Assembly (NCBI RefSeq): GCF_024385575.1
Contig: NZ_JANFMV010000001.1
Coordinates: forward strand, 1,517,681 to 1,581,680
From: Rhizobium sp. NRK18
GTDB taxonomy: Bacteria > Pseudomonadota > Alphaproteobacteria > Rhizobiales > Rhizobiaceae
Length of the DNA stretch: 64,000 nucleotides
Direction of reading: 5' to 3'
Part shown: positions 19,249-51,460 of the stretch, piece after piece
Layout of the letters: each line of letters starts with the position of its first letter
How positions within the stretch are numbered: position 1 is the first letter of the stretch
Notes under the pieces: model-generated
Seen by the model: only the letters and a program-made list of their open reading frames with translations
The model's database searches: none
Told to the model about the DNA's origin: nothing
Made by a program: the position numbers and the translations under genes

Positions 19249-20151
19249 TCAGAAATTCCAGTTGCGCGCCTTGGCGACGATGAAATCGCGGAAAGCCTTC
19301 AGCTTGGCGGCGTTCTTCATCTCGTCCGGATAGCAGAAATAGGTATCGAAGGAGGGAACGTCTGCGCTGGTCACGAGCTGAATGAGGCCCGGATCGCGGC
19401 CGGCGATGTAGTCCGGCAGCATGGCAATGCCGATTCCTAGCAGGCAGGCGCGCTTGATCGACGTCAGGCTGTTGATCTGCAGATGGGGGAGGCGCGGATT
19501 GTCGGGCGAGCGCCCGGCGATTTCCAGCCAGTTGACGTTCAGGAGATAGTTCGGTGCCGGTTCGCCGAAGGTGATGACGCGGTGATTGTCGAGTTCTTCG
19601 ATGCTGCGCGGTTCGCCGTGCTTGTTGATGTAGGACGGCGCGGCATAGACGTGCATGTGCACGGTGAACAGCTTGCGCTGGATGAGATCCGATTGCTGCG
19701 GCTGGCGCAGGCGAATGGCGCAGTCGGCCTGGCGCATGTTCACGTCCAGCTCCTCATTGTCGAGAATCAACTGGACCTGCATGTCCGGATAAAGCTGCAG
19801 GAACTCCTGGACCTTGTCGGTGAGCCAGCCCTGGCCGAGGCCGACGGTCGTCGTCACCCGAAGCTTGCCGCTCGGCTTCTCGTTGGTCTCCGTCAACTGG
19901 GCGCGGGCAGTCTCGAGCTTCAGCAAGACCTCGTTGGCGGTGCGATAAAGAAGTTCGCCCTGTTCGGTCAGGATCAGTCCGCGCGCATGGCGATGAAAGA
20001 GCTTGACGCCGACTTCCATTTCCAGCGCGCTGACCTGACGGCTGATGGCGGATTGCGAAAGGTGCAGCTTGTCGGCCGCATGGGTGAAAGATCCGGCTTC
20101 GGCGGCTGCGTGGAAAATTCGCAGCTTGTCCCAATCGAGAGGTACACCCAC
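19249..20151 (-). CDS. lsrB: LysR-family regulator LsrB/VtlR
   Basis: A 300-residue LysR regulator. The helix-turn-helix is at about 8-60 (GSFTHAADKLHLSQSAISRQ) and the effector domain runs from about 95. Cysteines are at 144, 236 and 273, all in the effector domain; LsrB of Sinorhizobium is described as redox-responsive through conserved cysteines, so these are likely the sensing thiols. Orthologues (LsrB, VtlR) control LPS genes, oxidative-stress functions and AbcR RNAs. It lies 17 bases after trxB on the same strand, and upstream of the AbcR-like RNA. Identity is supported mostly by this neighbourhood and the protein's length and motifs. Confidence 0.8.
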   Translation of the reverse strand: MGVPLDWDKLRIFHAAAEAGSFTHAADKLHLSQSAISRQVSALEMEVGVKLFHRHARGLILTEQGELLYRTANEVLLKLETARAQLTETNEKPSGKLRVTTTVGLGQGWLTDKVQEFLQLYPDMQVQLILDNEELDVNMRQADCAIRLRQPQQSDLIQRKLFTVHMHVYAAPSYINKHGEPRSIEELDNHRVITFGEPAPNYLLNVNWLEIAGRSPDNPRLPHLQINSLTSIKRACLLGIGIAMLPDYIAGRDPGLIQLVTSADVPSFDTYFCYPDEMKNAAKLKAFRDFIVAKARNWNF

Positions 20152-20168
20152 CTGGCTCTACGCCTCCG

Positions 20169-21143
20169 TTATTCTGCTGCGATCGCCACCGGCTGATGGC
20201 CGGCGAGATAGCGTTCTGCCTCGAGGGCCGCCATGCAGCCCATGCCGGCTGCCGTGACCGCCTGGCGGTAGATGTCGTCCGTCACGTCGCCGGCGGCGAA
20301 CACGCCGTCGATGTCGGTCGCCGTCGAATCCGGGGCCGTCCACAGATAGCCGTTGGATTTCAGCTTCAGCTTGCCCTTGAAGAGCTCAGTCGCCGGGGCG
20401 TGGCCGATCGCGACGAAGACGCCGTCGGTGGCAACCTCGGTGATCTCGCCGGTCTTGACGTTCTTCAGCCTTGCGCCGGTCACGGTCGGCGGCAACGGGC
20501 CCTTGTTCTTCACGCCGGTGATCTCGTCCAGCGTCGAGTCCCAGATGACCTTGACGTTTTCCTTGGCAAACAGGCGTTCCTGCAGGATCTTTTCCGAGCG
20601 GAAGGCGTCGCGGCGGTGCACGACGGTGACCGACTTGGCGATGTTCGACAGATAGAGCGCCTCTTCGACGGCGGAGTTGCCACCGCCGACGACGATGACG
20701 TCGCGGTTACGGTAGAAGAAGCCGTCGCAGGTGGCGCAGGCCGAAACGCCGCCGCCCTGGAAGGTCTGCTCGCTCTCGATGCCGAGCCACTTGGCCTTCG
20801 CACCGGTGGCGATGATCAGCGTGTCTGCGGTCCACACGGTACCGGAATCGGTCTTGGCGGTGAACGGACGATGGGTAAGGTCGACCTCGGTGACGATGTC
20901 GGACACGAGCTCGGCGCCGACATGCTCGGCCTGCTGGCGCATCTGGTCCATCAGCCACGGACCCTGGACCGGATCGGCAAAGCCCGGATAGTTTTCGACG
21001 TCCGTGGTGATCATCAGCTGGCCGCCCTGTTCCATGCCGGCGATCAGCACCGGCGACAGCATGGCACGCGCGGCATAGACCGCCGCCGTATAGCCGGCCG
21101 GGCCGGACCCGATAATCAAGACCTTGGTATGACGCACGGTCAT
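20169..21143 (-). CDS. trxB: Thioredoxin reductase
   Basis: A 324-residue FAD enzyme that passes electrons from NADPH to thioredoxin. FAD motif GSGPAGYTAA at 12-21; redox pair Cys136 and Cys139 in ACATCDG; NADPH motif VGGGNSAVEEA followed by HRRDAFR; C-terminal FAD motif GVFAAGDVTDD. The ATG at 21143 follows AAAGGAAA, so the frame's earlier ATG at 21161 is not used. It is followed after 17 bases by lsrB, giving a redox enzyme plus redox regulator operon. Its 5' end and promoter are duplicated near 24.1 kb. Confidence 0.95.
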   Translation of the reverse strand: MTVRHTKVLIIGSGPAGYTAAVYAARAMLSPVLIAGMEQGGQLMITTDVENYPGFADPVQGPWLMDQMRQQAEHVGAELVSDIVTEVDLTHRPFTAKTDSGTVWTADTLIIATGAKAKWLGIESEQTFQGGGVSACATCDGFFYRNRDVIVVGGGNSAVEEALYLSNIAKSVTVVHRRDAFRSEKILQERLFAKENVKVIWDSTLDEITGVKNKGPLPPTVTGARLKNVKTGEITEVATDGVFVAIGHAPATELFKGKLKLKSNGYLWTAPDSTATDIDGVFAAGDVTDDIYRQAVTAAGMGCMAALEAERYLAGHQPVAIAAE

Positions 21144-21296
21144 GGCATTTCCTTTCAACACCCTTCAACGGAGCGGCGCATCATAAACGACAGGCGCCAG
21201 CACCCGGAGGCAAATCCGACCAAATATCCAGCTTCATTTATGAATGCTTGCCGTGTTTATTCAAGGGCGGGGTATGGGTTACCAACAGGGAAGGGG
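21064..21296. repeat. Direct repeat, copy A: trxB 5' end and upstream region
   Basis: Matches 24088-24318 in the same orientation at roughly 85-90 percent by eye. It spans the first 26 codons of trxB and about 150 bases upstream, ending with TTACCAACAGGGAAGGGG. Further in, trxB 20912-20960 also matches 24041-24080. Confidence 0.88.
21237..21264 (-). promoter_or_regulatory. Promoter of trxB
   Basis: Minus strand -35 TTGAAT (21259-21264), 16-base spacer, -10 CATAAA (21237-21242), about 95 bases upstream of the start codon. In the duplicated copy the -10 survives but the -35 has changed to CTGATT. Confidence 0.55.
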
Positions 21297-21361
21297 TGTC
21301 ACAATCGAGGCGTAGTGATTGCGATTTGACAATTTGAAAAAGTTCTTCGGGTAGTATCTTG

Positions 21362-22348
21362 CTAAAGATTGATGTTGAAACGGCGCAGCCTGCGGCTAAG
21401 CTTGTCTATTGTCGCATCGCCTGCCGACGCAAGATAAGAATAGCCTTCGACGTCACCGGTGAGTGCTGAACCAATGATTCTTGTCAGTCCCATGATCTTA
21501 TCAAGCTGGTGAACGCTCATTCTGTCGTTCATTTTACACAAGCTTTGATAAATGTCAGATGTAATCGGGGCCTCAAAAAAGCATTTGTTTCCATGGAAAT
21601 ACAGTACCTTATCGGATTGAGCCCTTCTCCATATCGTTTCCCCATCCGTAGTCGCTAAGTTGGCATTGCTATCCGTTGTCAGTTCGAAAAAGTCCTCCAG
21701 GAGATTCTCACCATCCCAAGCAGAGATTTTGCTCTTAGTTGGATCTTTGGGGAGAATGTGAGCAAATGAAAGTTCATTGCCGTTGACGGTTTCCAATTGT
21801 AACGCCGTTTTCGAACGCTTGATCCGAAACTTTCTGTCTTCGATTCTGTGTTGCATCAGTTTTCTTGTCGCAGACAAAAAGTGAGTTGCTACGCCAAAAT
21901 GCATGAACTTAAAGTGCATAGCTTTTTTTGAAACCTTCGCGAAATTCTCCAGCGGTTGCAGGTTTGGCATGTATGGCCAGTCTTCAAGAGAAAACATCTG
22001 AAATTTACGCGATAACCTTCTGGCCTTCGTATATTGAAATAAAGATGAGATAACTGGCGTGTCACAAAAATTGATGGCGTTTGGATACATTTCTAGAGCT
22101 GAAGTCTGAAGGTCAAGCATTATTTCCGCTGGCGCGCAATTCAAAATAAGTTCATAATTCTCTTTCAGCTCAGAAGAGCTGTTTAATTGTTCTATGTCGC
22201 TGAGTATTCCAGAATATTCAGGAGTTGACTTGCGCAATATACAGATATTTTTTGGCTCTATAGAGCAGCACTTAAGTGCTGGTATTATGAACTCCTTAAC
22301 TCGCCAGCCGGCGCCAATAATCAAAAATTTCTTGTCTATTTTTTCCAT
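21362..22348 (-). CDS. Gfo/Idh/MocA-like NAD(P)-binding oxidoreductase
   Basis: A 328-residue protein with an N-terminal Rossmann motif FLIIGAGWRVKEFIIPALK (8-26) and a segment NFCDTPVISS that sits where Gfo/Idh enzymes have their EKP-like motif. The C-terminal half is compatible with the mixed sheet of the family but is divergent. Base composition is much more AT-rich than the flanks, and codon use differs, which suggests transfer. It starts 6 bases after the flavoprotein gene's stop, so the two are co-translated. A sugar or cyclitol substrate linked to the neighbouring polysaccharide genes is plausible but unproven. Confidence 0.62.
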   Translation of the reverse strand: MEKIDKKFLIIGAGWRVKEFIIPALKCCSIEPKNICILRKSTPEYSGILSDIEQLNSSSELKENYELILNCAPAEIMLDLQTSALEMYPNAINFCDTPVISSLFQYTKARRLSRKFQMFSLEDWPYMPNLQPLENFAKVSKKAMHFKFMHFGVATHFLSATRKLMQHRIEDRKFRIKRSKTALQLETVNGNELSFAHILPKDPTKSKISAWDGENLLEDFFELTTDSNANLATTDGETIWRRAQSDKVLYFHGNKCFFEAPITSDIYQSLCKMNDRMSVHQLDKIMGLTRIIGSALTGDVEGYSYLASAGDATIDKLSRRLRRFNINL

Positions 22349-22354
22349 GATGAG

Positions 22355-23686
22355 TCACAATAAGCGGTGTACGATGTGATTACCCAGTGCAGCGACGGTC
22401 ATCGTTGGATTGGCCGAACCGCAAACCGGGAATGCGGAAGACGAAGCGCAGAATATATTTTCAAACTTTGATACGCGGCCCTCAGCGGTGAGCTCCCAAT
22501 CCTCCTTCGGGAATTTTGAAAGGGGGGTCGTGCCGGCCGGGTGGCTGGATGCGCGAAGCGGTACCCAGGCCAATCTTTCGACGCGTCCGAATGCCATCTC
22601 AATTCGGGGGATGAAGAGGTCGAGGAAGCGGTCAAGCATACGCCTCGTATTTCCGTTGATCCGCCAGTTGGCGCGCGTGAAGGGTTCCACCTCCAAGCGA
22701 TTGTCAGCTTCCGGGAATTGATCAACATTAACAATCAGCGAAACGCTACGTCGGTTGTACCAGTGTGCCAATTTTGCGCCATAGCCAGATTGGCCCCAAA
22801 GAAATATAGTTGAATTTGGCAGCCCTGTTTTCAGGAGTTCCTCTTCCGGCAAGGCCAGCGCAAACCGGATATACGGGTGAGTTGGACTCAGTATTGCGTC
22901 GAGACAATCTAGGTTTTTGCGCGGTATGAGCTTTCCAATCGGACCTTTCGGATGATCCATGTATCCTGTGTATTTGGTATTTTTTGAACATGGCGCTTTT
23001 GATATTAAGGCGGAGATGAGCTCTGTCGAGCCAATGCATCCTGCTGCTATAAGGTGATTATGTGCGGAAACCTCCAGTGGGTTCGAGGTGTCATGGCGAA
23101 TGCGCGCGCTCCTGACAGAACCTTTGTCCGCTAGAAATTCAATTGAGGTGGCACCCTCATAAAGCGACACCTTGGAGGTCGCCTGTAAGTCTATCCAGCG
23201 CTGTTTCAGACGTGTGACTTCATGTTCTTGGGCAAACGGGACTACTCTGATGCCACAAGATTGCAATTCTTTGAAGCTTTCCAGCAGCTGTGGCTCTGTG
23301 AAGGTTGAGAAGCCGAACAATTTCTCGACCACCTGATAGTTCTGTCGCATGTCTTGATAGGAAATTGGCCATTTGCGGCCGCTAATTTCTCTATCAAAGT
23401 CAATCGCATCAAGCGGTCGCCACTTTCCCGACCACATTGCGGAAGTTCCGCCCAAGCCGACGAAACGAGGCGAATGCGAGAATTTCTTTAAGTCCGCCGC
23501 CCCGAAGTCAAAACCACCCGAGCGAATGGGCTCCCAATTTCCAGAAACTTGAGACATTTCGAGGGACTGCTTCAGGCTGTCTCGCCCACCCTTGTCGATA
23601 ACCGCAACCTTTAATCCGCGTCGGACTGCAGCCTGGGCGGCGGCGTAAGCGGCGAATCCGGAACCGTAAATCGCCAAATCATACAT
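22355..23686 (-). CDS. GMC-type FAD-dependent oxidoreductase
   Basis: A 443-residue flavoprotein. The N-terminal dinucleotide motif is YGSGFAAYAAAQAAVRRG (7-24), with Ala in place of the third Gly, followed by VIDKG. GLGGTSAMWSGKW fits the FAD-covering loop. The C-terminal catalytic region has SSHPAGT (His382) and GSANPTMTVAALGNHI (Asn426), the GMC His/Asn pair. No signal peptide, so cytoplasmic. The ATG at 23686 follows AAGGAGTAAATTG. Shorter than most GMC enzymes (500-600 residues). It is paired with a Gfo/Idh-like gene and is AT-rich like it. It may oxidise a hydroxyl group of a sugar or cyclitol for surface polysaccharide; this is inference. Confidence 0.75.
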   Translation of the reverse strand: MYDLAIYGSGFAAYAAAQAAVRRGLKVAVIDKGGRDSLKQSLEMSQVSGNWEPIRSGGFDFGAADLKKFSHSPRFVGLGGTSAMWSGKWRPLDAIDFDREISGRKWPISYQDMRQNYQVVEKLFGFSTFTEPQLLESFKELQSCGIRVVPFAQEHEVTRLKQRWIDLQATSKVSLYEGATSIEFLADKGSVRSARIRHDTSNPLEVSAHNHLIAAGCIGSTELISALISKAPCSKNTKYTGYMDHPKGPIGKLIPRKNLDCLDAILSPTHPYIRFALALPEEELLKTGLPNSTIFLWGQSGYGAKLAHWYNRRSVSLIVNVDQFPEADNRLEVEPFTRANWRINGNTRRMLDRFLDLFIPRIEMAFGRVERLAWVPLRASSHPAGTTPLSKFPKEDWELTAEGRVSKFENIFCASSSAFPVCGSANPTMTVAALGNHIVHRLL

Positions 23687-24040
23687 CAATTTACTCCTTG
23701 CGCCCTTATTTGTTTCGAACAATCAGATATTTTGTCAGTTTTGGCGGTTTACTTTACAGAGCATGTCTGGAAGTGTGCGGGTGCTGAGAAATTAATCCAC
23801 TGTTTCCATAAATGTTCATTTTAGACAGTATTTCTGTCGAGTGAAATCACTCCGATGTATTTGCGTTGGGAAAGGGGTATTTGAAGCGAGGTCGCGAGCT
23901 GCTGGAAATTAAAGTTTGTTTATCATAAGCGGTCCGAAAATAATGGACGCGATTATAACGCTAGAAAAATAATGTCGATCGTCGTCGCGATGATATGACC
24001 ACATCATTCGCGAATGCAGAAATGTGTTCATATACAAATT

Positions 24041-24166
24041 CGGCGCCCAAAGGCTCGGCCTGCTGGATCATCAGCCGCGGCGTTTGGTGCGCGCAGCATA
24101 GATTGCCGCCGTATAGCCTGCCGATCCGGACCCGATAATCAAGGCCTTGGTATCACGCACGGTCAT
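24041..24166 (-). pseudogene. Truncated trxB remnant
   Basis: Starting at ATG 24166 the frame reads MTVRDTKALIIGSGSAGYTA and AIYAARTKRRG, then TGA at 24071-24073. The first 26 codons match the intact trxB. The sequence then jumps to the region encoding LMDQ...QAEHVGAEL, so about 40 codons are deleted, and similarity ends near 24041. The ribosome site AAAGGAAA is kept. It cannot make thioredoxin reductase. Confidence 0.88.
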
Positions 24167-24318
24167 GGCATTTCCTTTCAAGGCCCTTCAACGGGACGGA
24201 ACATCATAGGCGACCGGCGCCAGCACCCTGAGGCAAAGCCGACCAAATATCCACCTTCATTTATGAATGCTTGCCGAATTTAATCAGGGGTGGGTATGGG
24301 TTACCAACAGGGAAGGGG
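24088..24318. repeat. Direct repeat, copy B
   Basis: Second copy of the trxB 5' region (see 21064-21296), same orientation. Differences are spread evenly, including loss of the -35 box, as expected of an older or diverged copy. Confidence 0.88.
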
Positions 24319-24386
24319 GATTGAATTTCGTTTCAACCATGTGCTTGTTGTGAAATCTCGCCGCATCTGTTAATTCGATTTCTCTA

Positions 24387-25421
24387 ATGACCAAGGCCAT
24401 ACAATACCCCTTTGGATCGCCCCGCGACGAGACCAAAGTTGCCAGTTCATCGTTCCTGCAATTGCTTTTCGCGCGCCTGGAGACACGGCGCATTCGTCGT
24501 CGCGAAAAGCGGATGGCACTCGACATTGAGATGCGTTGCGAACGGAAAGGGGGGCCTTCCAAGCTTTCGGCATCCGACATGCCGCTGATATTTCTGACGC
24601 GCAACGATCGAAGGTACCTTCCGTCATTCCTCGCGCATTATCGCACATTGGGCGTGACGCGCTTCATATGTGTCGATGATCAGTCTTCCGACGGCACGTC
24701 GGAGTTTCTGGCAGATCAACCGGATGTCGATCTCTGGACTTCCCCCGTCCGATACAAGGAAGCACGACGGGGCCGTTTGTGGCGGATGCAGCTGTTCGCG
24801 ACCTATGGAAAAGGGCGGTGGTACGTCAATGTTGATTCAGACGAATATCTCCTCTTCCGGGACTGTGGAACGCTTTCGCTGAAGGAGCTTGCAGCCAGGC
24901 TGGAAAGCAATGGCGAGTGGAGGCTTGCTGCGCCCATGCTCGACATGTTCCCGGCTGGCAACATGTCGGGAGCGACTTTCGACGGGACGTCGGAGCGCAT
25001 GCCATGGGAAGTGGCTGATCATTTCGATGCGGAAGGCTATCGTTTGTCTCTCGGCAAACGAGGTCTTCATCTGCGTGGAGGATTGCGTCACCGGAAATTC
25101 GGTACGGCAGTCGAGCTCATGAAGTACCCGCTGGTCTATTGGGATGAGTCTTGCAGCCTTGTAACCAGTATCCATAGCCCCGCGCCGTTCGTTCGAAACT
25201 TCATTCCTATTCGCGGCGTTCTTCTCCATTTTAAGTTCTTTTCCGATTATCGTCGGCAGATCCAGGAAACGGTGCAGGACGAACAGCATTTCGGGAATGC
25301 CGCGGCATACCGCGAGATGTTGGAACAGGTCGAAAGTGAAACGTACGTCACTTTTCATGACGATGTGTCACGTCGCTTCGAGGGGGTCGATCAATTGGCG
25401 AGTCTCGGCTTCATGCAATGA
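24387..25421 (+). CDS. Glycosyltransferase family 2-like protein
   Basis: A 344-residue predicted cytoplasmic glycosyltransferase with the GT-A start MPLIFLTRNDRRYLPSFL (about 65-82), the nucleotide-binding VDDQSSDGTSEFL, and a DxD-type motif in WYVNVDSDEYLLF. This arrangement matches the GT2_4/GT92-like group. It is the first of a plus-strand series of polysaccharide genes, 68 bases after the trxB repeat. The ATG at 24387 has no good ribosome site; a later in-frame ATG near residue 43 is possible. The N-terminal 55 residues are basic and not conserved in the fold. Confidence 0.77.
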   Translation: MTKAIQYPFGSPRDETKVASSSFLQLLFARLETRRIRRREKRMALDIEMRCERKGGPSKLSASDMPLIFLTRNDRRYLPSFLAHYRTLGVTRFICVDDQSSDGTSEFLADQPDVDLWTSPVRYKEARRGRLWRMQLFATYGKGRWYVNVDSDEYLLFRDCGTLSLKELAARLESNGEWRLAAPMLDMFPAGNMSGATFDGTSERMPWEVADHFDAEGYRLSLGKRGLHLRGGLRHRKFGTAVELMKYPLVYWDESCSLVTSIHSPAPFVRNFIPIRGVLLHFKFFSDYRRQIQETVQDEQHFGNAAAYREMLEQVESETYVTFHDDVSRRFEGVDQLASLGFMQ

Positions 25422-25786
25422 TCCAGTCGGTTTCTCCGCGATGTATGCAGGCAGTTTCCATGGGTTGCCTGTGGATCAGCTTCGAATAAATTCGCCCTAT
25501 TTGCCGGTATTCCGCTTGCGCGTGTATCGCCCATTATATCCGACCAAATTTGGGGCATACGCGACTTGGCGTTGCAGTGACGTACCCTTGATGGTACTCG
25601 CTTTTCCCATGCAAGCCGTCCGTCTCGAGCGCCACTACCAACCATCAGACAGCCCGTTATTGCATTCCGGAAGAATATTGCCTTTACCGAACCGCGGTGA
25701 AGGGTGTTGATTTTTGATTGGGCAATGCTTGGGTTGTTGCCCGGATAATGCACGTATAAATGTTAACCAGAATTGGGTGAAGTCGG
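25422..25786. other. Intergenic region in the polysaccharide cluster
   Basis: These 365 bases have no credible gene. A hairpin GGGCAA (25720-25725) with TTGCCC (25737-25742) lies about 45 bases before the next gene and lacks a T run. The rest resembles decayed coding DNA in composition, but I cannot name a source. Confidence 0.4.
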
Positions 25787-26503
25787 ATGTCATCGCGCGG
25801 TGCAATATACATCGCATTTGGAGAGCAGCATATTCGCGAGGCGCTTCATTCAGCGGCGTCCTTGAAGCGGCATAATAATCTCTCAGTCACTCTTTTTGCT
25901 GATGCAAAGGTTGATGACCGCAATATCGATGATCTTATCTTGATAAACCCAAGTCACAAGAGGGCAAAAGTCGACTACATCAGTCAAAGTCCCTATGATT
26001 ATACAATATACCTCGACAACGACACCGAAATTCTCGAAAATATAGACGATGATCTCAGTATTCTAGATCGATTTGACATCGCCTGCGCGCAGGACTTCTC
26101 GCGAAAATCGAGCCGCTGGGCGAGCGTCATCGAAAGCTATAGAGATATTCCCTATGTCTTCCCGGAGTTCAATTCGGGCGTCATCTTCTTCAGGAACAAC
26201 CCGGCTGTGACGGAGTTCTTCGCCCTCTGGGCCTCACGGTTCTACGAGCACATGGAAAAGAGCAAGGGGCAGGATCAGGCGTCCTTTCGCATCGCATTGT
26301 GGGAAAGCGATCTCCGCATCCATTCGCTGCCACCGGAATTCAATGTCCGCAATCTCCGGATCAGGGACAAGATGGTCAAGCGGCAGAAGGGGCCGAAGGA
26401 CGCCATGCTGCTGAAACCGCGCATATATCACTGGCATGGACTGGATCGTATGACGCCGCTTAAAAGGCTGTTGCGCAAATACAGGCCGATGAAGGTATTC
26501 TGA
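25787..26503 (+). CDS. Glycosyltransferase (GT8/GT77-like nucleotide-sugar fold)
   Basis: A 238-residue GT-A-fold protein. The N-terminal strand AIYIAFGEQHIREALHSAASLK is followed by the metal-binding motif YLDNDTEIL and EFNSGVIFFRNN, a pattern typical of the GT8/GT77-type retaining transferases. The C-terminus has KPRIYHWHGLDR, in the place where GT8 proteins have their HxxG-type metal ligand. The protein is soluble. The base composition of the first third is AT-rich. It follows a 365-base gap and precedes the ATP-grasp gene by 51 bases. Donor and acceptor unknown. Confidence 0.7.
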   Translation: MSSRGAIYIAFGEQHIREALHSAASLKRHNNLSVTLFADAKVDDRNIDDLILINPSHKRAKVDYISQSPYDYTIYLDNDTEILENIDDDLSILDRFDIACAQDFSRKSSRWASVIESYRDIPYVFPEFNSGVIFFRNNPAVTEFFALWASRFYEHMEKSKGQDQASFRIALWESDLRIHSLPPEFNVRNLRIRDKMVKRQKGPKDAMLLKPRIYHWHGLDRMTPLKRLLRKYRPMKVF

Positions 26504-26554
26504 TTGGCGGAAATGGTAATTTTTATCGGGTTGTTCTGCTGCGTCGTGAGATAA

Positions 26555-27472
26555 ATGTACGTGAAAGATACTTGGCAGTCCCGCATTCTTCGGTTGAGTA
26601 GATTTTCATGGAGCAAGCCGCTTCTCAACATCTTGAGAGTGTCGTCTGGGCATTCGGCGCTCGGCGATTTTCTTGTCGGTTTGAGGCAATTTCAGAGACA
26701 CCATGGTCGTGTTCCCGCAGACCCGAACCTTTTCAATGATCGCCTTTTCCAGATACGGTTTTCCGATGAAATCATGCGACCGGAGCGAACCTTCACCACC
26801 GACAAGGAACTTGTGAAGCTCTATGTCGAATCCGTGCTGGGTCCCGGGTATAACGTGCCCACACTGGCGGTCATTCGTCGACCTGAGGACGTCGACGATT
26901 TCGAGTTTCCCCGGCGATGCGTCATCAAGCCGACCCATGCTTCGGGAGAAGTGATTATCCGAAGAGACGGCGAGGAAATCGACCGTCTGAGGATTCGCAA
27001 GTGGTTCAAGCTCGACTATTATGCGAGAGGCCGGGAATGGAACTACAAATATCTTAAGCCCAAGGTCATCGTTGAGTCCCTCGCTTTTGATTCTGATAAC
27101 ATCGAGGACATAAAGCTGTTCTGCTATAATGGCCGCGTCAAAATGATCGAGTGTGATTTTGATCGCTACTCCGATCACCGGCGGAGCCTGTTCACGGCCG
27201 ACTGGCAGGAGTTGCCGTTTGAGCTCCATCATCCACGTCCGGATTTTCTGAAACAGAAGCCGCCGAACCTGGATAATATGATTGATGTGGCGGAAAAGCT
27301 TGCATCAGCATTTGATTTCGTGAGGATCGACCTCTACAGCAATGATGAAACTCTCCTTGTCGGTGAGATGACGCATTGCCACCAGGGTGCCTTCGGAACG
27401 TTCGAGCCGCGCGACGCCGAGTTCGAGGTCAGCAGGCTGATCTTTGGTGACAACACCTCTGCGGATATTTGA
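26555..27472 (+). CDS. TupA-like ATP-grasp protein of polysaccharide biosynthesis
   Basis: A 305-residue protein of the TupA-like ATP-grasp family. Visible are FNDRLFQIRFSDEIM, the DKELVKLYVESVLG segment, the ATP-binding strand RCVIKPTHASGEVIIRR, the KPKVIVESLAF segment, DIKLFCYNGRVKMIECDFDR and the metal-binding end FDFVRIDLYSND with GEMTHCHQG. TupA proteins make amide bonds, as in teichuronopeptide, and relatives occur in many capsule and O-antigen loci. Here it could join an amino acid to a uronic acid of the surface glycan (inference). It is co-directional with the glycosyltransferases. Confidence 0.82.
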   Translation: MYVKDTWQSRILRLSRFSWSKPLLNILRVSSGHSALGDFLVGLRQFQRHHGRVPADPNLFNDRLFQIRFSDEIMRPERTFTTDKELVKLYVESVLGPGYNVPTLAVIRRPEDVDDFEFPRRCVIKPTHASGEVIIRRDGEEIDRLRIRKWFKLDYYARGREWNYKYLKPKVIVESLAFDSDNIEDIKLFCYNGRVKMIECDFDRYSDHRRSLFTADWQELPFELHHPRPDFLKQKPPNLDNMIDVAEKLASAFDFVRIDLYSNDETLLVGEMTHCHQGAFGTFEPRDAEFEVSRLIFGDNTSADI

Positions 27473-27589
27473 TCCGGGCCAGGACGTGATTGGTTTGAGG
27501 TGGCAAAAGTCTCTCTGGCAGTCGCAGCCCGCTGACCACGGAGGGCGGGGAGGACGTGAGGCTCTGGTTCCGTCAGGATTGTGTTGTCG

Positions 27590-28396
27590 ATGCTTTTGCC
27601 GATATCCGCTTACATCATTTGCCTGAATGAGGAAGCATACCTCGGCAAGTGCATCGAAAGCCTCGTGGGCTTCGCCGAGATTGTCATCGTCGATTCAGGT
27701 TCGTCCGATGGCACCAAGACCCTGGTTGAGGGGTACATAGCCAAAGGCTGGCCGATCCGGTTCCTGTACGAACCGTGGCGGGGATATGCAGGCCAGAAAC
27801 AATTTGCGCTGGAGCAGTGTGCCCAACCCTGGTGCTTCAATATAGATGCCGACGAGCGCGTGGATGCCGCCTTGTTGAAACGCCTTCCTGAGCTCGTCGG
27901 TGTTTCCGAGGACATCGTCGGTTGGCGCGTTGCCCGCCGTCCTTATCTTATCGGATATGGATACACTCCGGAAAATGTCATGGAACGCAAGAACCTGCGT
28001 CTCATCCGCAAGGGCAAGGGCAGCTATGATCTTTCACAGGCTGTGCATGAGGGAATCGTGCCGGACGGCCAGGTCCGCAAATCGCCCACCGGCAGCCTGT
28101 TGCATTTTCGGCCTCTCATCATCGATGAGCAGATCCTGAAGGAAAACAAATATTCGACGTTGAAGGCCGATCAGCGTGTTTTGGAAGGGCGGCGCGCAAA
28201 TGTCGCCAGCCTCGTTTTCAGCCCGCCGCTCTATTTTTTTCGCCTCTATTTTAGAAATGGCCTATGGCGCTGTGGCGCTTCCGGCTTTATCGAAGCGATG
28301 ACCGGTGCGGTATATGCCTTTCTGACCCAGGCCAAGATTTACCAGCGCCATGCTTTGAGGGCGCGTCCGAATGCGGACGACGCAGAAAGACATTAG
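27590..28396 (+). CDS. Glycosyltransferase family 2, WaaE/KdtX-like
   Basis: A 268-residue GT2 enzyme. Motifs: ISAYIICLNEEAYLGKCIESL at the start, VDSGSSDGTKTL, the DxD motif in CFNIDADERVDAALL, then RRPYLIGYGY and ERKNLRLIRKGKGSYD typical of the WaaE/LgtF glucosyltransferases that modify inner-core LPS. The C-terminal amphipathic region FRLYFRNGLWRCGASG may touch the membrane. Possible starts are GTG 27581, TTG 27584 and ATG 27590; AGGA at 27575 fits the last two. It is followed after 15 bases by a GT4 enzyme. Confidence 0.83.
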   Translation: MLLPISAYIICLNEEAYLGKCIESLVGFAEIVIVDSGSSDGTKTLVEGYIAKGWPIRFLYEPWRGYAGQKQFALEQCAQPWCFNIDADERVDAALLKRLPELVGVSEDIVGWRVARRPYLIGYGYTPENVMERKNLRLIRKGKGSYDLSQAVHEGIVPDGQVRKSPTGSLLHFRPLIIDEQILKENKYSTLKADQRVLEGRRANVASLVFSPPLYFFRLYFRNGLWRCGASGFIEAMTGAVYAFLTQAKIYQRHALRARPNADDAERH

Positions 28397-28411
28397 GAGC
28401 AGTCTCTGCCC

Positions 28412-29437
28412 ATGAAAGTGATGCACTACCACCTCGGCAAGGACGGCGGCGCCGAGAAATTCTTCGTCCATCTGGTCAATGGTCTGGCCCGGCGCGGCGT
28501 CGAACAGACCTGCGTGATACGGCCGAAGAGACTGTGGAAGAAGGATATTGAACCCGTCGCCCGCATCATCGAGAGCAATTTCCGGAACGCGCATCCGGAT
28601 CGCATTCTCCTGCCGATGAGGATCGGGCGGATCGTCAGGCGGGAAAAGCCCGACGCCCTGTTTTCGTGGGCCACCCGGGCCAGCAGGCTGATCCCGGCCT
28701 ATGAGGGCGCTATCAAGATATCGCGGCTCGGCGACTACCCGACGAACCTCAGCTATTTCAAGAATACCGACGTTCTGGTGTGCAACACTCCGGGCATTGC
28801 AGAGCATGTCCGCGAAACACTGGGTTGGGATCGTGGCGTCGAGGTGATCTCGAATTTCACCGATGTGACGGCGGTCGCTCCCATCACGCGCGCCAGCGTC
28901 GATACGCCGGAAGGCGTGCCAGTGGTCATGTCGATGGGACGGTTCGTTTCACGCAAGGAATTCGCGTTGCTGATCGCGGCTGTTGCCAAGTTGCCTGGCG
29001 CGTATCTCTGGTTGGCCGGCGACGGCGAAGAACGTGAAAATCTGGAAAGAATGGCCGCGAATCTGGGCATCAGTGAACGGGTTCGCTTCCTTGGCTGGCT
29101 GCAAGATACGCGACCTTATGTGGCGGCTTGCGACATTTTCGTTATGCCGTCCAGTCACGAGCCACTCGGCAATGTCGTTCTGGAAGCCTGGGCTCAGAAG
29201 CGACCGGTTGTGTCGTCGCGCTCGGAAGGGCCTTCCTGGTTCATGCGCCACGGCGAAAATGGTCTGCTGGTTGATATCGGCGATACGGACGGTTTTTCGA
29301 CTGCGATCGAGACGCTGATCAATGACGAGGCTCTTGCGTCCAAGGTTGCTGCCGGCGGTCATCAGACCGTATTGGGGCAATTTTCGGAAGATGCGATCGT
29401 CGATGCGTATATGGCGCTCTTTGCCAGAAAGCCTTGA
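28412..29437 (+). CDS. Glycosyltransferase family 4 (GT-B), LPS core type
   Basis: A 341-residue GT-B enzyme. The N-terminal domain begins MKVMHYHLGKDGGAEKFFVH. The C-terminal nucleotide-sugar domain contains VVMSMGRFVSRKEFALLI, YLWLAGDGEERENLE, FLGWLQDTRPYVAACDIFVMPS and the EPLGNVVLEAW motif whose Glu residues bind the donor. It is a retaining enzyme of the same family as rhizobial LPS core transferases such as LpsD and LpsE. It is close to the WaaE-like gene upstream and the unknown gene downstream. I do not assign one of these symbols. Confidence 0.85.
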   Translation: MKVMHYHLGKDGGAEKFFVHLVNGLARRGVEQTCVIRPKRLWKKDIEPVARIIESNFRNAHPDRILLPMRIGRIVRREKPDALFSWATRASRLIPAYEGAIKISRLGDYPTNLSYFKNTDVLVCNTPGIAEHVRETLGWDRGVEVISNFTDVTAVAPITRASVDTPEGVPVVMSMGRFVSRKEFALLIAAVAKLPGAYLWLAGDGEERENLERMAANLGISERVRFLGWLQDTRPYVAACDIFVMPSSHEPLGNVVLEAWAQKRPVVSSRSEGPSWFMRHGENGLLVDIGDTDGFSTAIETLINDEALASKVAAGGHQTVLGQFSEDAIVDAYMALFARKP

Positions 29438-29574
29438 GAGACCTATTATTCGGATCCCTATCCAGCGCCTTCCGCAGTCTCTTGCATTTCGAGATGATTT
29501 GGGTGTGTTTACAGGGAAGGCCGGCTTGATCGTACCTGCCTGGTCCAGGGTCCGCCGCAAAGGAGAAGTCCAAG

Positions 29575-30228
29575 GTGCAGATTTTCGTGGTCGGCTCCAA
29601 ACCCAACCCGCATTGGCCGGCGGTTCAGCCCGATGTCGTAATTCTCGCCAATGGTGCGATCGCCTACGCCAGGGACCGCTTCTCCGCCGCTCATTGCATT
29701 GGTTTTGCGTCACTGAATTTCTGTCGCCAGAGCCGGGGCGTTCAGAACAGAGCAGATCGAGACGCGGTAGAGGGCGTCGAGCTTGATGAGTTGGTCTATT
29801 GGGATCCGGTCGGCAAGGATTGGCTCAAGGATGTCAACTTCAAATACAAGACTGGCAAGGAGCTCAGCAATTGGGAGCAGTGGTGGTTCAATTACTGCCA
29901 CTATTCTTTTGTCCGATGGCTTGTCGCGATTGCCAACCCACGGAATTGGTGGCACGCCTTCAAAAAACACAGGGTTGGCATGCCTGCGTATTTTGCCGGC
30001 AGTCGGCTATCGACAGGCATGCTTGCTGTCGAATATGCGATGAGGCGCTTCCCTGACGCTGACAAAATTCATGTTTGTGGGATTGGTGTGAAGTGGACCG
30101 GCGGGCATTTTTATGACCAGGCCCATGCGCATGACAATTTTCACGAAAAGGCGGATGTCGCGCTTTACCGGTGGATCAAGAAGAATAGGGCTAACGTAAT
30201 CTTTTGCGAGGTCGGCGAACCTTTGTAG
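29575..30228 (+). CDS. Uncharacterised protein of the LPS core cluster
   Basis: A 217-residue soluble protein, rich in Trp, Tyr and His, which I do not recognise with confidence. It starts MQIFVVGSKPNPHWPAV and VVILANGAIAYARDR, then the Trp-rich WEQWWFNYCHYSFVRW, and MPAYFAGSRLSTGMLAVEYAMRRF with DKIHVCGIGVKWTGGHFYDQ. The last two segments resemble the nucleotide-binding part of sialyltransferase-like GT42/DUF115 enzymes (phosphosugar or nucleotide-sugar binding), but this is weak. The GTG start at 29575 is supported by AAGGAG at 29559-29564. Its place between a GT4 enzyme and lpsB suggests a role in LPS core sugar transfer. Confidence 0.6.
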   Translation: MQIFVVGSKPNPHWPAVQPDVVILANGAIAYARDRFSAAHCIGFASLNFCRQSRGVQNRADRDAVEGVELDELVYWDPVGKDWLKDVNFKYKTGKELSNWEQWWFNYCHYSFVRWLVAIANPRNWWHAFKKHRVGMPAYFAGSRLSTGMLAVEYAMRRFPDADKIHVCGIGVKWTGGHFYDQAHAHDNFHEKADVALYRWIKKNRANVIFCEVGEPL

Positions 30229-30320
30229 CCGTCCTTTTGCGCCTTTCGACGCCTGGCCGCGTTTGGTACTGCGGTGGTGGCGCCTGCTCATAAGGCACTA
30301 TTTTGTCGACGCTCGTTCGC

Positions 30321-31418
30321 CTAACCGCCCATCACCTTCGCATAAACCGCCCCAAGCCGCTCCGCCTCGCTTTCGATCGCGAAGTTATGGCGCGCGTGGG
30401 CGAGCGCATTCGCTCCCGCCCGTTCGCGCCTTGGTTCGTCGTCCATGAACTGAGCGGTCGCTTCCGCCATGGCGTCGAGGTTGTCGCGGGGGATGATGGT
30501 GCCGGTTTCGGCGTCTCCCGTCTCGATCAGTTCCGGAAAGGCGCCGACGTCGGTGGCGATGACGGGGACGGCGGTGGCCATGGCTTCGAGCGGGGTCAGG
30601 CCGAAACCTTCCCAGCGCTGCGGGGCGATGAAGAGGTCGAGGCCGCGGTACCAGTCGTTGATGTTGGTGTGCTCGCCGACAAACAAAATCCGGTCGGCAA
30701 GGCCGGCTGCCTTCACCTTCTCCTTCAGGCCGTTTTCGAATTCTACATGCTGCGGGGTGGCGCGGCCGGCGATGATCGCCGACCAGTCTGGCCGCTGCGG
30801 CAGAAGCCGGATCATGGTGTCGACGAAGAGATCGGTTCCCTTCTGGCGGCGAACACGGCCGAAGCAGCCGGCGATCTTCTGCGCCGGATCAAGGCCGAGT
30901 GCGCGCTTTGCCTCGGCCTTGTCGGCCGGCGGCGAAAATCGCGTCGTGTCGATGCCATGCAGGCTTACGGTGCTTTCGACCTCAAGATAGGCCGCCGTCT
31001 TGGCGCTGGTGGCGATCACCGCGTCCATCTTCGAAATCAGGAATTTCGTCCAGCCGGTGTGGCGGCGCTGCGAGGCGGAGGTGAAGACGATCTTCAATGG
31101 CATGCGCAGGAGGTCGCGCAGGATGATCGCCGGCAGCATCTCGATGTTGCGCCGCGCGTGCCAGACGCGGAAGCGCTTGCCCTTCGGCGGCGTCCACAGG
31201 CGCCAGAGGTCGCGGTAGCGGATATGGGGCAGGGTGGCCGGCAGGCCGGATCCGAGAACGGCAATGCGCTGGCCGAGCCGGCGCTGCACCGGAACGAGCT
31301 GGATGATCGTCGAGGTGACCCCCGACAGCCGCTGCTTGAAGTTCGGCGCGATGATGTCGATTTCGCGGAGATCGGCCACCGCGCCTTGATGGGCGGTGGC
31401 CTTGCTTGCGACCGTCAC
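30321..31418 (-). CDS. lpsB: LPS core mannosyltransferase LpsB/LpcC
   Basis: A 365-residue GT-B enzyme of GT4. In rhizobia LpsB/LpcC adds mannose to Kdo in the inner core, and mutants are impaired in symbiosis. Features: APNFKQRLSGVTSTIIQLVPVQ near the N-terminus, TSASQRRHTGWTKFLISKMD, GCFGRVRRQKGTDLFV, and the donor-binding EGFGLTPLEAMA. It starts 9 bases after the greA stop, so the two are co-transcribed. The called start is GTG at 31418, with no clear ribosome site, and a start some residues further in is possible because the fold begins near residue 20. Confidence 0.86.
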   Translation of the reverse strand: MTVASKATAHQGAVADLREIDIIAPNFKQRLSGVTSTIIQLVPVQRRLGQRIAVLGSGLPATLPHIRYRDLWRLWTPPKGKRFRVWHARRNIEMLPAIILRDLLRMPLKIVFTSASQRRHTGWTKFLISKMDAVIATSAKTAAYLEVESTVSLHGIDTTRFSPPADKAEAKRALGLDPAQKIAGCFGRVRRQKGTDLFVDTMIRLLPQRPDWSAIIAGRATPQHVEFENGLKEKVKAAGLADRILFVGEHTNINDWYRGLDLFIAPQRWEGFGLTPLEAMATAVPVIATDVGAFPELIETGDAETGTIIPRDNLDAMAEATAQFMDDEPRRERAGANALAHARHNFAIESEAERLGAVYAKVMGG

Positions 31419-31426
31419 GGTCGCGC

Positions 31427-31903
31427 TCAGCCCCAGCTGACGGCGAGGATTTCGTAGGCCTTGGAGCCGCCGGGGGCGTTCACTTCGATGGAATCGCCTT
31501 CCTCCTTGCCGATCAGTGCGCGGGCTATCGGCGACGAGATGGAAATGCGGCCCGCCTTCACATCGGCTTCCTGGTCGCCGACGATCTGGTAGGTCTTTTC
31601 CTCTTCGGTGTCTTCATCGACGAGCTTGACGGTCGCGCCGAACTTGACGGTGGAACCGGACATTTTCGTGAGGTCGATGACTTCCGCACGGGCAATCAGG
31701 TCTTCCAGCTCGCCGATGCGGCCCTCATTGTGGCTCTGCGCTTCCTTGGCGGCGTGGTACTCTGCGTTTTCCGAAAGGTCGCCATGGGCGCGCGCTTCGG
31801 CGATCGCCTCGATGATTCTCGGGCGTTCCTCCTGCTGGCGCCAGCGAAGCTCTTCGTTGAGCTTGGTGAAACCACCCGGGGTCATCGGAACTTTCTCAAC
31901 CAT
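31427..31903 (-). CDS. greA: Transcription elongation factor GreA
   Basis: A 158-residue factor that stimulates RNA polymerase to cleave backtracked transcripts. The N-terminal coiled coil contains the acidic tip [17 protein letters not shown], with the catalytic Asp and Glu residues present. The C-terminal domain starts near residue 80 ([20 protein letters not shown]) and ends [16 protein letters not shown]. The ATG at 31903 follows AAGGAAAAGGAA. The earlier ATG at 31948 would add 15 residues and is not supported. Its leader carries a terminator-like hairpin at 31958-31982. Confidence 0.94.
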
Positions 31904-31957
31904 TTCCTTTTCCTTACTGCGCGTCCCGTTCGTTGTGCATAGGGACAAAAGAAAACA

Positions 31958-31982
31958 GGTTCCGAAGAGGAACTTCGGAACC
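31958..31982 (-). promoter_or_regulatory. Hairpin in the greA leader
   Basis: Perfect 10-bp inverted repeat GGTTCCGAAG / CTTCGGAACC with a 5-base loop. On the greA strand it is followed by TGTTTTCTTTTG, resembling an attenuator, about 55 bases before the greA start. E. coli greA has a similar leader terminator; relation here is inference. Confidence 0.5.
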
Positions 31983-32014
31983 AGTCAAACTGTCAACTTG
32001 AGCGTTTATAGCAG

Positions 32015-32043
32015 ACTCGCCCGGTCAAATGCGAGTTTTTTTT
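32015..32043 (+). terminator. Orphan plus-strand terminator
   Basis: ACTCGC (32015-32020) and GCGAGT (32031-32036) with an eight-T tail on the plus strand. No plus-strand gene lies upstream, so either an unannotated small RNA or antisense transcript of greA's leader ends here. Confidence 0.65.
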
Positions 32044-32165
32044 AGCCAACTCCGGCTCCCGTGCCGGCTCTTGCCCTGCCCGTCAGGGGATGTGGCCTTC
32101 ATCCAAGTGTCATGGTCAGGGACTATCCGACGTGTGTCGCAATTCCCTGCCTAAGGAGAGAGACC

Positions 32166-33920
32166 ATGATGAAGTGTTTTTCGGCGCTTGCCGCCGCAAC
32201 CATGCTGGCCGGTGCCGCGCATGCCGCCACCGTCTATCCGCTCGATCGTGCCACGATCCTCGTCAACTCGCCGTTCGACTTCAAGGTCGAGCTCGACAAG
32301 GTCTACGGTGAGGGTGATGTCGCTGTCACCGTCAACGGCAAGCCCTATGCCGAAGTCTTCGGCAAGCCGGCCGAATTCGTCGCCGAAGAAAAGGGCAAGG
32401 ACGACGCCGTCCTCGGCTCGGCCCTGATCCTGCGCGATCTGGCGCTTGCCTCGGCCGGCGATTACACCGTCGAAGTCAAGGCCGGCGATGAAACCAAGTC
32501 GGTTACCTGGAACGTCTACGGCACCCCGGCTGCGCCGAAGGCCAAGAACATCATCTTCTTCCTCGGTGACGGCCTTTCGGTCGCCCACCGCACCGCCGCC
32601 CGCATCATGTCGAAGGGCATGACCGAGGGTAAGGCCAACGGTCGTCTGAACATCGACGATCTCGATCACATGGCCTTCATCGGCACCTCGTCGACCCATT
32701 CGATCGCCACCGACTCGGCCAACACCATGTCGGCCTACATGACCGGCCACAAGTCGCGCGTGAACGCCCTTGGCGTCTATGCCGACCGCACCCCGGCAAG
32801 CCTTGACGATCCGAAGGTCGAGACGATCGCCGAAGCGCTGCGCCGCACGACCAAGAAGTCGATCGGCGTCGTTTCCACCGCCGAAATCGAAGACGCGACC
32901 CCGGCCGCCGTCATCGCCCACACCCGCAAGCGTGCCGACAAGGCCGAGATCGTCGGCATGTTCATGAAGACCCAGCCCGACGTCATCCTCGGAGGCGGTT
33001 CGGCCTACTTCCTGTCGAAGGATGTCCCCGGCTCCAAGCGCAAGGACGACAACGACTACATCGCCCAGTTCAAGGATGCCGGCTACACGCTCGCAACCTC
33101 CAAGACGGAACTGGATGCAGCCGCCGGTACCAACACCGGCAAGCTGCTTGGCCTGTTCCACACCGGCAACATGGACGTCGCGCTCGACCGCATGTTCCTG
33201 AAGAAGGGCACCGTCGACAAGTTCCCCGACCAGCCGGGCCTCGTCGACATGACCAAGACCGCCCTCGACCAGCTGTCGAAGAACCCGGAAGGCTTCTTCC
33301 TGATGGTTGAAGCTGCCTCCGTCGACAAGATGTCTCACCCGATGGACTGGGAACGCTCCGAATTCGACGTCATCGAGATGGACCAGGCCGTCGGCGCTGC
33401 CATGGAGTTCGCCAAGACCCATCCCGATACGCTGATCGTCGTCACCGGCGACCATACGCACGGCGTGTCGATCGTCGGCACCGTCGATGACGAAAAGCCG
33501 GGCGACGTGATGAGCGAGAAGGTTGGCACCTATGACGACGCCGGCTTCCCGAACTACACCGACGAGAATGGCGACGGCTATCCGGACAAGGTGGACGTGT
33601 CCCGCCGCATTCAGATGTATGCCGGCAACCATCCGGAATACTACGAGACCTTCCGTCCGAAGATGGATGGTCCGTTCGAGCCGTCGATCAAGAATGCGGA
33701 CGGCAAGTATGTCGCCAACCCGGCCTACAAGGATGTCCCCGGCGCCGTGCTGATGCCGGCCAACATCCCGTCCGACGGCGACACCGCTGCCCATACCGTT
33801 GACGACGTCGTGCTGCAGGCCACCGGCCCCGGCTCGGAAGAGTTCAAGGGCTACATGGAGCAGAGCGACGTCTACAAGGTCCTGATGGACACCTTCGCGC
33901 TCGGCTCGCAGTCGATGTAA
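32166..33920 (+). CDS. phoA: Alkaline phosphatase (PhoA family)
   Basis: A 584-residue periplasmic metalloenzyme that releases phosphate from monoesters. Residues 1-20 are a signal peptide (cut near AHA). A beta-rich N-terminal domain of about 100 residues precedes the catalytic fold. Metal and catalytic motifs: FFLGDGLS (Asp135), ATDSANTMSAYMTG with the nucleophile Ser184, VEAASVDKMSH, TGDHTHG. An EF-hand-like DENGDGYPD suggests Ca2+ binding. The ATG at 32166 follows AAGGAGAGAG. No clear Pho box was found upstream, so PhoB control is unproven. It ends in a strong terminator and precedes the zinc-type ABC operon. Confidence 0.9.
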   Translation: MMKCFSALAAATMLAGAAHAATVYPLDRATILVNSPFDFKVELDKVYGEGDVAVTVNGKPYAEVFGKPAEFVAEEKGKDDAVLGSALILRDLALASAGDYTVEVKAGDETKSVTWNVYGTPAAPKAKNIIFFLGDGLSVAHRTAARIMSKGMTEGKANGRLNIDDLDHMAFIGTSSTHSIATDSANTMSAYMTGHKSRVNALGVYADRTPASLDDPKVETIAEALRRTTKKSIGVVSTAEIEDATPAAVIAHTRKRADKAEIVGMFMKTQPDVILGGGSAYFLSKDVPGSKRKDDNDYIAQFKDAGYTLATSKTELDAAAGTNTGKLLGLFHTGNMDVALDRMFLKKGTVDKFPDQPGLVDMTKTALDQLSKNPEGFFLMVEAASVDKMSHPMDWERSEFDVIEMDQAVGAAMEFAKTHPDTLIVVTGDHTHGVSIVGTVDDEKPGDVMSEKVGTYDDAGFPNYTDENGDGYPDKVDVSRRIQMYAGNHPEYYETFRPKMDGPFEPSIKNADGKYVANPAYKDVPGAVLMPANIPSDGDTAAHTVDDVVLQATGPGSEEFKGYMEQSDVYKVLMDTFALGSQSM

Positions 33921-39212: not shown

Positions 39213-39411
39213 GGCATGCGCGCTCCCCTCAAGCGTGTGCTGCGGGAATATTAGCGGACTGCGATGTGTCCGGCAAACAGCTAAGGCAATGTGGACGAAT
39301 GTCATAGCCCGGGTGTCGACAGGGCGCTGATTGACGGTGAACAGGCCCGGGCGGATACTGTGTTGGCAGAGGGGAGCCGGGAGGATGCGTCTGACCGGTC
39401 GGGAGGGCGAG

Positions 39412-41286: not shown

Positions 41287-44778
<3,492 letters not shown>

Positions 44779-50536: not shown

Positions 50537-51460
50537 ATGGAATGGAAGGGACGCCGTCAGTCCGACAATGTCGAGGATGTCCGCGGCAGTTCGCGCCAGG
50601 GCGGATTTGGACGCAGCCCCTTCGGACGGGGCGGGATCAGTTTCCCGTCTTCCGGCGGAAGTGGCCGCCGCGGCGGCATCGGCTCTATCGTGGTGCTGGT
50701 GATCATCTTCTTCGTGCTGAAGGCGATGGGCATCGACGTGCTGCAGCTTCTGAACCAGGGTGGCGGCTCCGTCGGCGGGTCGGGCTACGAGCAGAGCACG
50801 TCGCCCTCCGGCAGCACCGTCAGCGCCGAGAAAAAGGCCTTCGTGGCGACCGTCCTTGCCGATACGGAAGACACCTGGACGAAGATCCTCGACCAGAGCG
50901 GCCAGACTTATGTGGCGCCCAAGCTGGTGCTGTTTTCCGGGGCTTATCCGTCCGCCTGCGGGCAGGCGTCCTCGGCCATGGGGCCGTTCTACTGCCCGAC
51001 CGACAGCAAGGTCTATCTCGACATGGACTTCTTCGACGAACTGTCGCAGCGCTTTGGCGCGGCCGGCGATTTCGCCGATGCCTATGTGATCGCTCACGAA
51101 GTGGGCCATCACGTACAGAACCTGCTCGGCATCCTTCCGGAATATCACCGCATGCGCCAGAAGATGGGCCAGGACGAGGCCAACAGGCTCTCCGTCCGCG
51201 TCGAACTGCAGGCCGATTGCTTTGCCGGCATTTTCGGGCGGGCCGAAAAGGACAAGGGCTACATGGATCCGGGCGACCTGGAAGAGGCGCTGAAGGCTGC
51301 CAACCAGATCGGCGACGACGCGCTGCAGAAGAGCGCGCAGGGCTATGCCGTTCCCGACAGCTTCACGCATGGAACCTCGGCGCAGCGCGTCAAATGGTTC
51401 AAGCGCGGCTTCGACACCGGCAATCTCGAATCCTGCGACACGTTTTCCAATCCGGTCTGA
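50537..51460 (+). CDS. ypfJ: YpfJ-type neutral zinc metallopeptidase
   Basis: A 307-residue membrane-anchored protein. A Gly/Arg-rich cytoplasmic N-terminus (1-46) precedes one transmembrane helix (47-64) and an extracytoplasmic peptidase domain. The zinc motif is HEVGH at 187-191 in AHEVGHHVQNLLG, with VELQADCFAGIFG supplying a likely third ligand. Cys pairs occur at 141/153 and near the C-terminus. No substrate is known for this family. The ATG at 50537 follows GGGAGAGCACAGC. It is monocistronic. Confidence 0.88.
   Translation: MEWKGRRQSDNVEDVRGSSRQGGFGRSPFGRGGISFPSSGGSGRRGGIGSIVVLVIIFFVLKAMGIDVLQLLNQGGGSVGGSGYEQSTSPSGSTVSAEKKAFVATVLADTEDTWTKILDQSGQTYVAPKLVLFSGAYPSACGQASSAMGPFYCPTDSKVYLDMDFFDELSQRFGAAGDFADAYVIAHEVGHHVQNLLGILPEYHRMRQKMGQDEANRLSVRVELQADCFAGIFGRAEKDKGYMDPGDLEEALKAANQIGDDALQKSAQGYAVPDSFTHGTSAQRVKWFKRGFDTGNLESCDTFSNPV

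Follow-up and report, generated by a model that had tools for sequence, protein, structure and literature searches.

The closest described parallel to the locus reported here lies in the type VI secretion system (T6SS) effector-immunity arrays of Vibrio cholerae, for which homology-facilitated illegitimate recombination, a rare process, has been proposed (available excerpts of PMC5361080). A second is the greA, lpsB, lpsCDE region of Sinorhizobium, which encodes proteins of 158, 351, 270, 343, and 340 residues according to the excerpted text of PMC3788101. These lengths agree with the record of S. meliloti Ak57, in which the order is LysR, trxB, Lrp, three glycosyltransferases, a fourth on the opposite strand, greA, a major facilitator superfamily transporter, a hypothetical gene, and carB. 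Here we describe the corresponding locus in a 64,000-nucleotide stretch of the soil bacterium Rhizobium sp. NRK18 (contig NZ_JANFMV010000001.1, positions 1,517,681 to 1,581,680; hereafter the window), where two copies of the 5' end of trxB, the thioredoxin reductase gene, frame a module of two genes, one for a short GMC-type flavoprotein and one for a protein that we call Orf328. As in the excerpted account of the V. cholerae arrays, the locus would have a conserved anchor on one side, a putative non-homologous join on the other, and a displaced resident piece beyond the module; unlike those arrays, it has trxB, a housekeeping gene at the lipopolysaccharide (LPS) core locus, as its anchor and a dead 5' fragment as its remnant. 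Homologs of the Sinorhizobium genes lie between trxB and carB here too. Unlike that region, as far as the PMC3788101 excerpts describe it, the window has no lrp, one of lpsD and lpsE was not separately found, and a glycosyltransferase gene, a nucleotide-sugar transferase-like gene, a TupA-like gene, and the module are extra. We modestly favor a reading in which a one-sided exchange brought the module to the end of the lps core locus where trxB lies, and in which the module acts as a redox pair on a surface-glycan sugar. The features on which this reading turns are given below by position in the window.

20169..21143, minus strand: trxB, intact thioredoxin reductase, with its ATG at 21143 (the open reading frame (ORF) listing opens at GTG 21161); TIGR01292 at 400.6 bits, cut-off 343.45
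21062..21296, minus strand: copy A, the 5' end of the intact trxB plus ~150 bp upstream (repeat search, pairwise alignment)
21362..22348, minus strand: Orf328, no convincing Pfam or NCBIfam match, predicted Gfo/Idh/MocA fold
22355..23692, minus strand: short GMC-type flavoprotein, 445 residues from its ATG, with a possible TTG start at 23722
23693..24039, no strand: spacer from the GMC gene to the relic, 40.1% guanine plus cytosine (GC) over 23723-24039; the trxB match stops at ~24040
24040..24318, minus strand: copy B, an apparently decaying, truncated trxB 5' relic plus upstream block (repeat search, alignment, base-level comparison with relatives)

As the initial annotation had proposed, the trxB 5' end and about 150 bp of upstream DNA (copy A, 21062-21296) recur in the same orientation at 24085-24318 with 86-87% identity, and a further trxB segment recurs beyond them. 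The match resolves into direct repeats 21062-21271/24085-24294 (87% identical) and 21264-21296/24286-24318 (94%), with a third inside trxB at 20911-20943/24040-24072 (85%). A gapped alignment of copy A with copy B has 220 of 255 positions identical (E 4e-84, for a comparison of these two pieces only). The distal copy is indeed dead: read from the ATG at 24166, its frame runs for 31 codons before a TGA, and ~105 bp of copy A are absent between its two trxB pieces. The -35 box said to have been lost from copy B was not confirmed, since a consensus scan found no sigma-70-like site in either copy. Because the copies differ by ~12%, misassembly is an unlikely origin of the repeat.

For comparison we took the 40 best trxB matches from other genomes and used 39 of them, which span 18 genera and are nearest matches rather than a random sample; one genome (G259) was excluded because its stretch (L037) ends within trxB. 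Each relative was examined over ~11-17 kb upstream. Over the initial 80 coding bases the two copies have 10 differences, of which 5 fall at codon positions 1-2; the upstream block has 17 substitutions and one gap in its 153 columns. Among pairs of relatives with 6-20 differences, at least half of the differences fell at codon positions 1-2 in 8 of 687, a comparison that serves as a guide and not a formal test, since these pairs share genomes and are not independent. From this pattern of coding versus upstream differences, copy B looks free of coding constraint and appears to be a decaying relic. At 4 of the 10 differing coding sites the base in copy B occurs in none of the 39 relatives, and at 2 of the 10 it is copy A that has the minority base; thus both copies have changed.

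The initial annotation had also expected copy B to resemble the trxB of another lineage more than its neighbor. This was not borne out: among 297 family genomes copy A is the best match to the whole block of copy B, at 86% over 253 bp, the next best reaches 80% over 90 bp, and hits in the plasmid collection do not exceed 81% over 72 bp or 79% over 95 bp. The upstream block has no match of any length outside the genome itself (297 family genomes for copy B; plasmids for both copies). The second trxB copy came either from a close lineage that has not been sampled or from the genome itself. The latter would imply a local duplication of the trxB 5' end in one genome, followed by a separate insertion of two genes between the copies. 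Over the whole block each copy is closest to the other, and coding and upstream divergence are similar, as such a duplication would have it. It requires two events, however, and leaves unexplained both the loss of lrp and the junction of copy B with a glycosyltransferase, described below, and we regard it as improbable.

The locus itself is conserved in outline among the relatives, with greA present in 39/39 and carB in 38/39. In those 38 the distance from trxB to carB is 2.5-15.5 kb (median 7.8 kb), versus 20.1 kb here. A gene of the Lrp/AsnC family lies near trxB in 37 of the 39 (17 of 18 genera), at a distance of 200-657 bp in 34 and beyond a glycosyltransferase in the other 3. At the window locus no Lrp match better than E 0.74 was found in 20001-33000, and the 12 Lrp-type matches elsewhere in the genome are only 26-41% identical to S. 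meliloti Lrp. The arrangement is not family-wide: no Orf328-type gene occurs at the trxB locus of any of the 39 relatives, and 38 have no trxB-fragment repeat, the other (L170) having one 33-bp match at 85%. One relative (L158) has one weak 40-residue trxB match, and there is no clear second case of the scar among the 39.

A junction of trxB with the glycosyltransferase, without the module, had been predicted for some relatives. It exists in 3 of the 39 (L164-L166), in which a homolog of the gene at 24387-25421 adjoins intact trxB, divergently and at ~251-281 bp as extrapolated from alignments; in two others (L172, L180) the homolog is ~715-720 bp from trxB with Lrp between. Because this divergent spacing of L164-L166 from intact trxB resembles the one seen here, copy B is probably what is left of an earlier trxB junction. 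The prediction holds for one genus only, a point that returns below.

Homologs of LysR, LpsC, LpsE, LpsB, GreA, and CarB place the site at the trxB end of the lps core locus of rhizobia, the content of which varies among relatives. Beyond the module, the locus comprises the following.

19249..20151, minus strand: LysR regulator, conserved left neighbor of trxB (Pfam HTH_1/LysR_substrate; 85.6% to the S. meliloti LysR beside trxB)
24387..25421, plus strand: family 2 glycosyltransferase (PF13704), divergent, 221 bp from the relic ATG
25787..26503, plus strand: nucleotide-diphospho-sugar transferase-like gene (PF03407)
26555..27472, plus strand: TupA-like ATP-grasp gene (PF14305), inside the lps core locus
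27581..28396, plus strand: LpsC-like glycosyltransferase, 78.9% to the 270-residue family 2 glycosyltransferase beside lrp in S. meliloti; named by length and order (PMC3788101 excerpts)
28412..29437, plus strand: LpsE/LpsD-like glycosyltransferase, 64.8% and 51.3% to two S. meliloti genes; named by length and order (PMC3788101 excerpts)
30321..31418, minus strand: LpsB-like glycosyltransferase; the S. meliloti family 4 glycosyltransferase matches 31379-30330 at 72%
31427..31948, minus strand: GreA; S. meliloti GreA matches 31903-31430 at 91%
41287..44778, minus strand: carB, conserved right edge of the variable interval (Pfam CPSase_L domains; 91% to S. meliloti carB)

A plus-strand ORF at 30303-31457 was rejected as a gene because it is antisense to the lpsB-like gene. 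Between the lps genes and carB, 37848-39305 encodes a protein with a T6SS Tle1-like phospholipase domain (PF09994), homologs of which (55-62%) occur in the same interval of 5 of the 39 relatives.

The repeat, the relic, and the lps neighbors support the proposal that this is a scar of recombination or replacement beside LPS genes. In the exchange that we favor, incoming DNA from a close unsampled lineage would have paired with trxB on one side, and on the other would have joined without homology inside the 5' end of the resident trxB; the spacer at 23693..24039 is the probable side of that join. Such an exchange would leave trxB whole, with copy A at its 5' end, and the truncated copy B joined to the glycosyltransferase, with the module between the two copies and lrp gone. 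Homology-facilitated illegitimate recombination may have been the route. The scar is asymmetric: copy A adjoins the module, and the copy B remnant faces the glycosyltransferase junction. A mirror-image event, in which the module survives from an earlier gene cluster and the glycosyltransferase side is the newcomer, having brought copy B with it from a sister lineage, would yield the same end structure. Three observations would suit this order of events: copy A is still joined to LysR, as is usual; GC content is lower in the glycosyltransferase next to copy B than in trxB (55.2% versus 64.8%); and the trxB-glycosyltransferase junction is known from a single genus. Against it, the LpsC-, LpsE-, and LpsB-like proteins, GreA, and CarB on the right side are 65-91% identical to those of S. 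meliloti, and since these genes are so well conserved most of the right side looks resident; moreover, the copy that faces it is B, not A. We consider the mirror image unlikely, if the most serious competitor to the exchange just outlined.

The initial annotation was also right that the two genes between the copies are AT-rich (42.4% GC for the Orf328 ORF and 52.0% for the GMC ORF, versus 60.6% for the window) and without a transposase match in Pfam or NCBIfam. AT-rich DNA between direct repeats could be taken for a mobile element whose target duplications or attachment sites are the repeats. This we think very improbable: neither gene matches an integrase any more than a transposase, the repeats are long, diverged gene fragments, the sole tRNA of the window is at 51289, and three Orf328-type proteins had no match in 72,556 plasmid records.

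Several observations weigh against the one-sided exchange. In the initial 87 coding bases copy A has 87.4% identity to one relative (L143) against 83.9% to copy B, and among plasmid sequences its coding end aligns with Sinorhizobium trxB at up to 86.6% identity across 164 bases; with the coding part of copy A nearer to these sequences, it is the upstream block that ties the two copies together. The genus is represented in the comparison by this genome alone, so the direction and donor of the exchange are proposals. Support for the trxB-glycosyltransferase junction is limited to one genus, and two relatives of one genus (L174, L177) also have no Lrp near trxB, so the loss or replacement of lrp is not unique to the window.

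For the flavoprotein of the module, the closest described proteins are the large subunits of bacterial flavin adenine dinucleotide (FAD) glucose dehydrogenase and fructose dehydrogenase, and the pyranose oxidases, with which it has in common the GMC fold and the active-site His/Asn. It is ~100 residues shorter than the FAD glucose and fructose dehydrogenases (445 versus 544-545) and, unlike all of these enzymes, is without PF00732 and has a Rossmann-type partner. The C-terminal GMC domain, PF05199, is found at 31.7 bits against a curated cut-off of 24.6; a Pfam search gave no PF00732 match at E 0.001, only short matches to FAD motifs, and the predicted GMC fold spans the whole chain. We therefore file the protein as GMC-type and not as a typical member. 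H382 and N426 are conserved in all 25 aligned proteins (of 31; one fragment and five distant ones were left out), and they align with positions 1147 and 1190 of fructose dehydrogenase and also with FAD glucose dehydrogenase. In the GMC superfamily the active-site His is followed by Asn or His ~44 residues on. A longer, more distant GMC gene, with no Orf328 partner by profile, lies in the same trxB-side lps locus of one relative (G126, L165:5173-6831).

Orf328 is closest to the Gfo/Idh/MocA family, which includes the NAD-dependent sulfoquinovosidase 8qc6 and myo-inositol dehydrogenases, and its predicted structure has the two-domain Rossmann plus alpha/beta fold of that family. Unlike the family, it has no PF01408, which was found in none of 41 members at E up to 0.1; it has DTP in place of the EKP motif; and it has conserved SLEDWP and H-x2-DK motifs. 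These counts refer to an alignment of 41 of 45 proteins (P0066, P0073, P0074, and P0076 were left out). An NCBIfam transaminase model matched 1 of the 41 at E 0.00082, which we took as chance. A glycine-rich GAGWRV motif, a candidate for NAD(P) binding, is present in most members, and SLEDW, H156, D219, R241, Y250, and K284 are present in all 41, a pattern that suggests a site under selection.

The two genes form what their profiles indicate is a sporadic, conserved two-gene unit. Six of 78 loci found with the GMC profile also match the Orf328 profile: five have the genes adjacent (L053-L057, from three Mesorhizobium, Kaistia terrae, and one Gemmatimonadaceae metagenome-assembled genome), and in one, from Xaviernesmea oryzae (L070:9941-12442), they are apparently fused, with residues 21-518 GMC and 534-832 Orf328-like. 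A further pair in G437 (L163) brings the adjacent loci besides the window to six. A search for other fusions in 294 family genomes gave one hit, a weak partial match with stops. Pfam scans of the neighbors covered L053, L055, and L163: the first is flanked by matches to two group 1 glycosyltransferases, a family 2 glycosyltransferase, Polysacc_synt_3, an O-antigen ligase, and Wzz, and the other two by glycosyltransferases and a capsule-synthesis protein. Carriers of Orf328, counting the starting genome in each case, number 2 of 397 in the order, and 3 of 146, 1 of 179, and 1 of 28 in the groups of L053, L056, and L055, respectively; for distant members these are lower bounds, because this kind of search passed over the fusion in the genome that carries it.

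Taken with the GMC active-site residues and the predicted folds, the conserved pairing, the one apparent fusion, and the polysaccharide genes beside three other pairs make a redox change to a sugar of a surface glycan, LPS or other, the likely role of the module. The flavoenzyme would oxidize a sugar hydroxyl of the glycan, and its Gfo/Idh/MocA-like partner would act on, reduce, or hand over the keto product, giving an epimerized or otherwise changed sugar; the substrate, reaction, and use of NAD(P) are all conjectural. Some of the evidence runs counter to this role. The GMC model has a predicted local distance difference test score (pLDDT) below 50 at 57-73, 76-81, and 300-311, and the GMC ORF of L057 is shortened to 316 residues. 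The Orf328-like half of the X. oryzae fusion scores only 42 bits, the same profile run on that whole genome did not report it, and its ORF neighborhood, viewed as ORFs without a Pfam scan, contains no obvious polysaccharide cluster. In 72 of the 78 GMC loci, some of them represented by short stretches, no Orf328-type gene appeared, so the pairing is special to this subgroup of GMC proteins. Finally, a weak profile alignment (hhalign probability 47%) places DTP opposite EKP, and the position of the EKP lysine, which we take to be catalytic in the Gfo/Idh/MocA family, is Thr in 40 of the 41 Orf328 members and Met in the other. With that lysine missing, classical dehydrogenase chemistry for Orf328 is doubtful.

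This last point bears on a further alternative, that a sugar oxidase is accompanied by a non-enzymatic Rossmann partner, such as a sensor or chaperone, or that a catabolic pair stands beside LPS genes by chance. Besides the lost lysine, the structural matches of the Orf328 model include the regulator Gal80p, and papers on catabolic GMC glycoside oxidases are listed in the literature. The polysaccharide neighborhoods of L053, L055, and L163 argue against a pair with no biosynthetic role, as do the invariant residues of Orf328 and the selected site that they suggest, and we rate this alternative as rather unlikely. The broadest form of the reading that we prefer combines these elements: GMC and Orf328 would be an undescribed redox unit, once fused, that modifies a surface-glycan sugar and moves sporadically between polysaccharide loci, and whose arrival here displaced the Lrp regulator. 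We advance this only tentatively. A replacement scar at a variable locus is a known kind of event; among the papers listed from the open-licence PubMed Central literature, none described the gene pair that it carries, a GMC and Gfo/Idh pair in polysaccharide loci, and none concerned the trxB-lrp edge.

The scar offers a readable record of the rewriting that a rhizobial lps core locus can undergo on its trxB side, one that keeps an apparent older junction and from which a widely conserved regulator has been lost. If the exchange took place as proposed, the composition of the LPS core and its control may have changed in a single event. The conserved pair, one family of which has no convincing Pfam or NCBIfam match, is a candidate route to a modified surface sugar; if the proposed role is correct, that route would couple oxidation by a GMC flavoenzyme to a step on a Gfo/Idh/MocA-type fold that has given up the lysine of its family.

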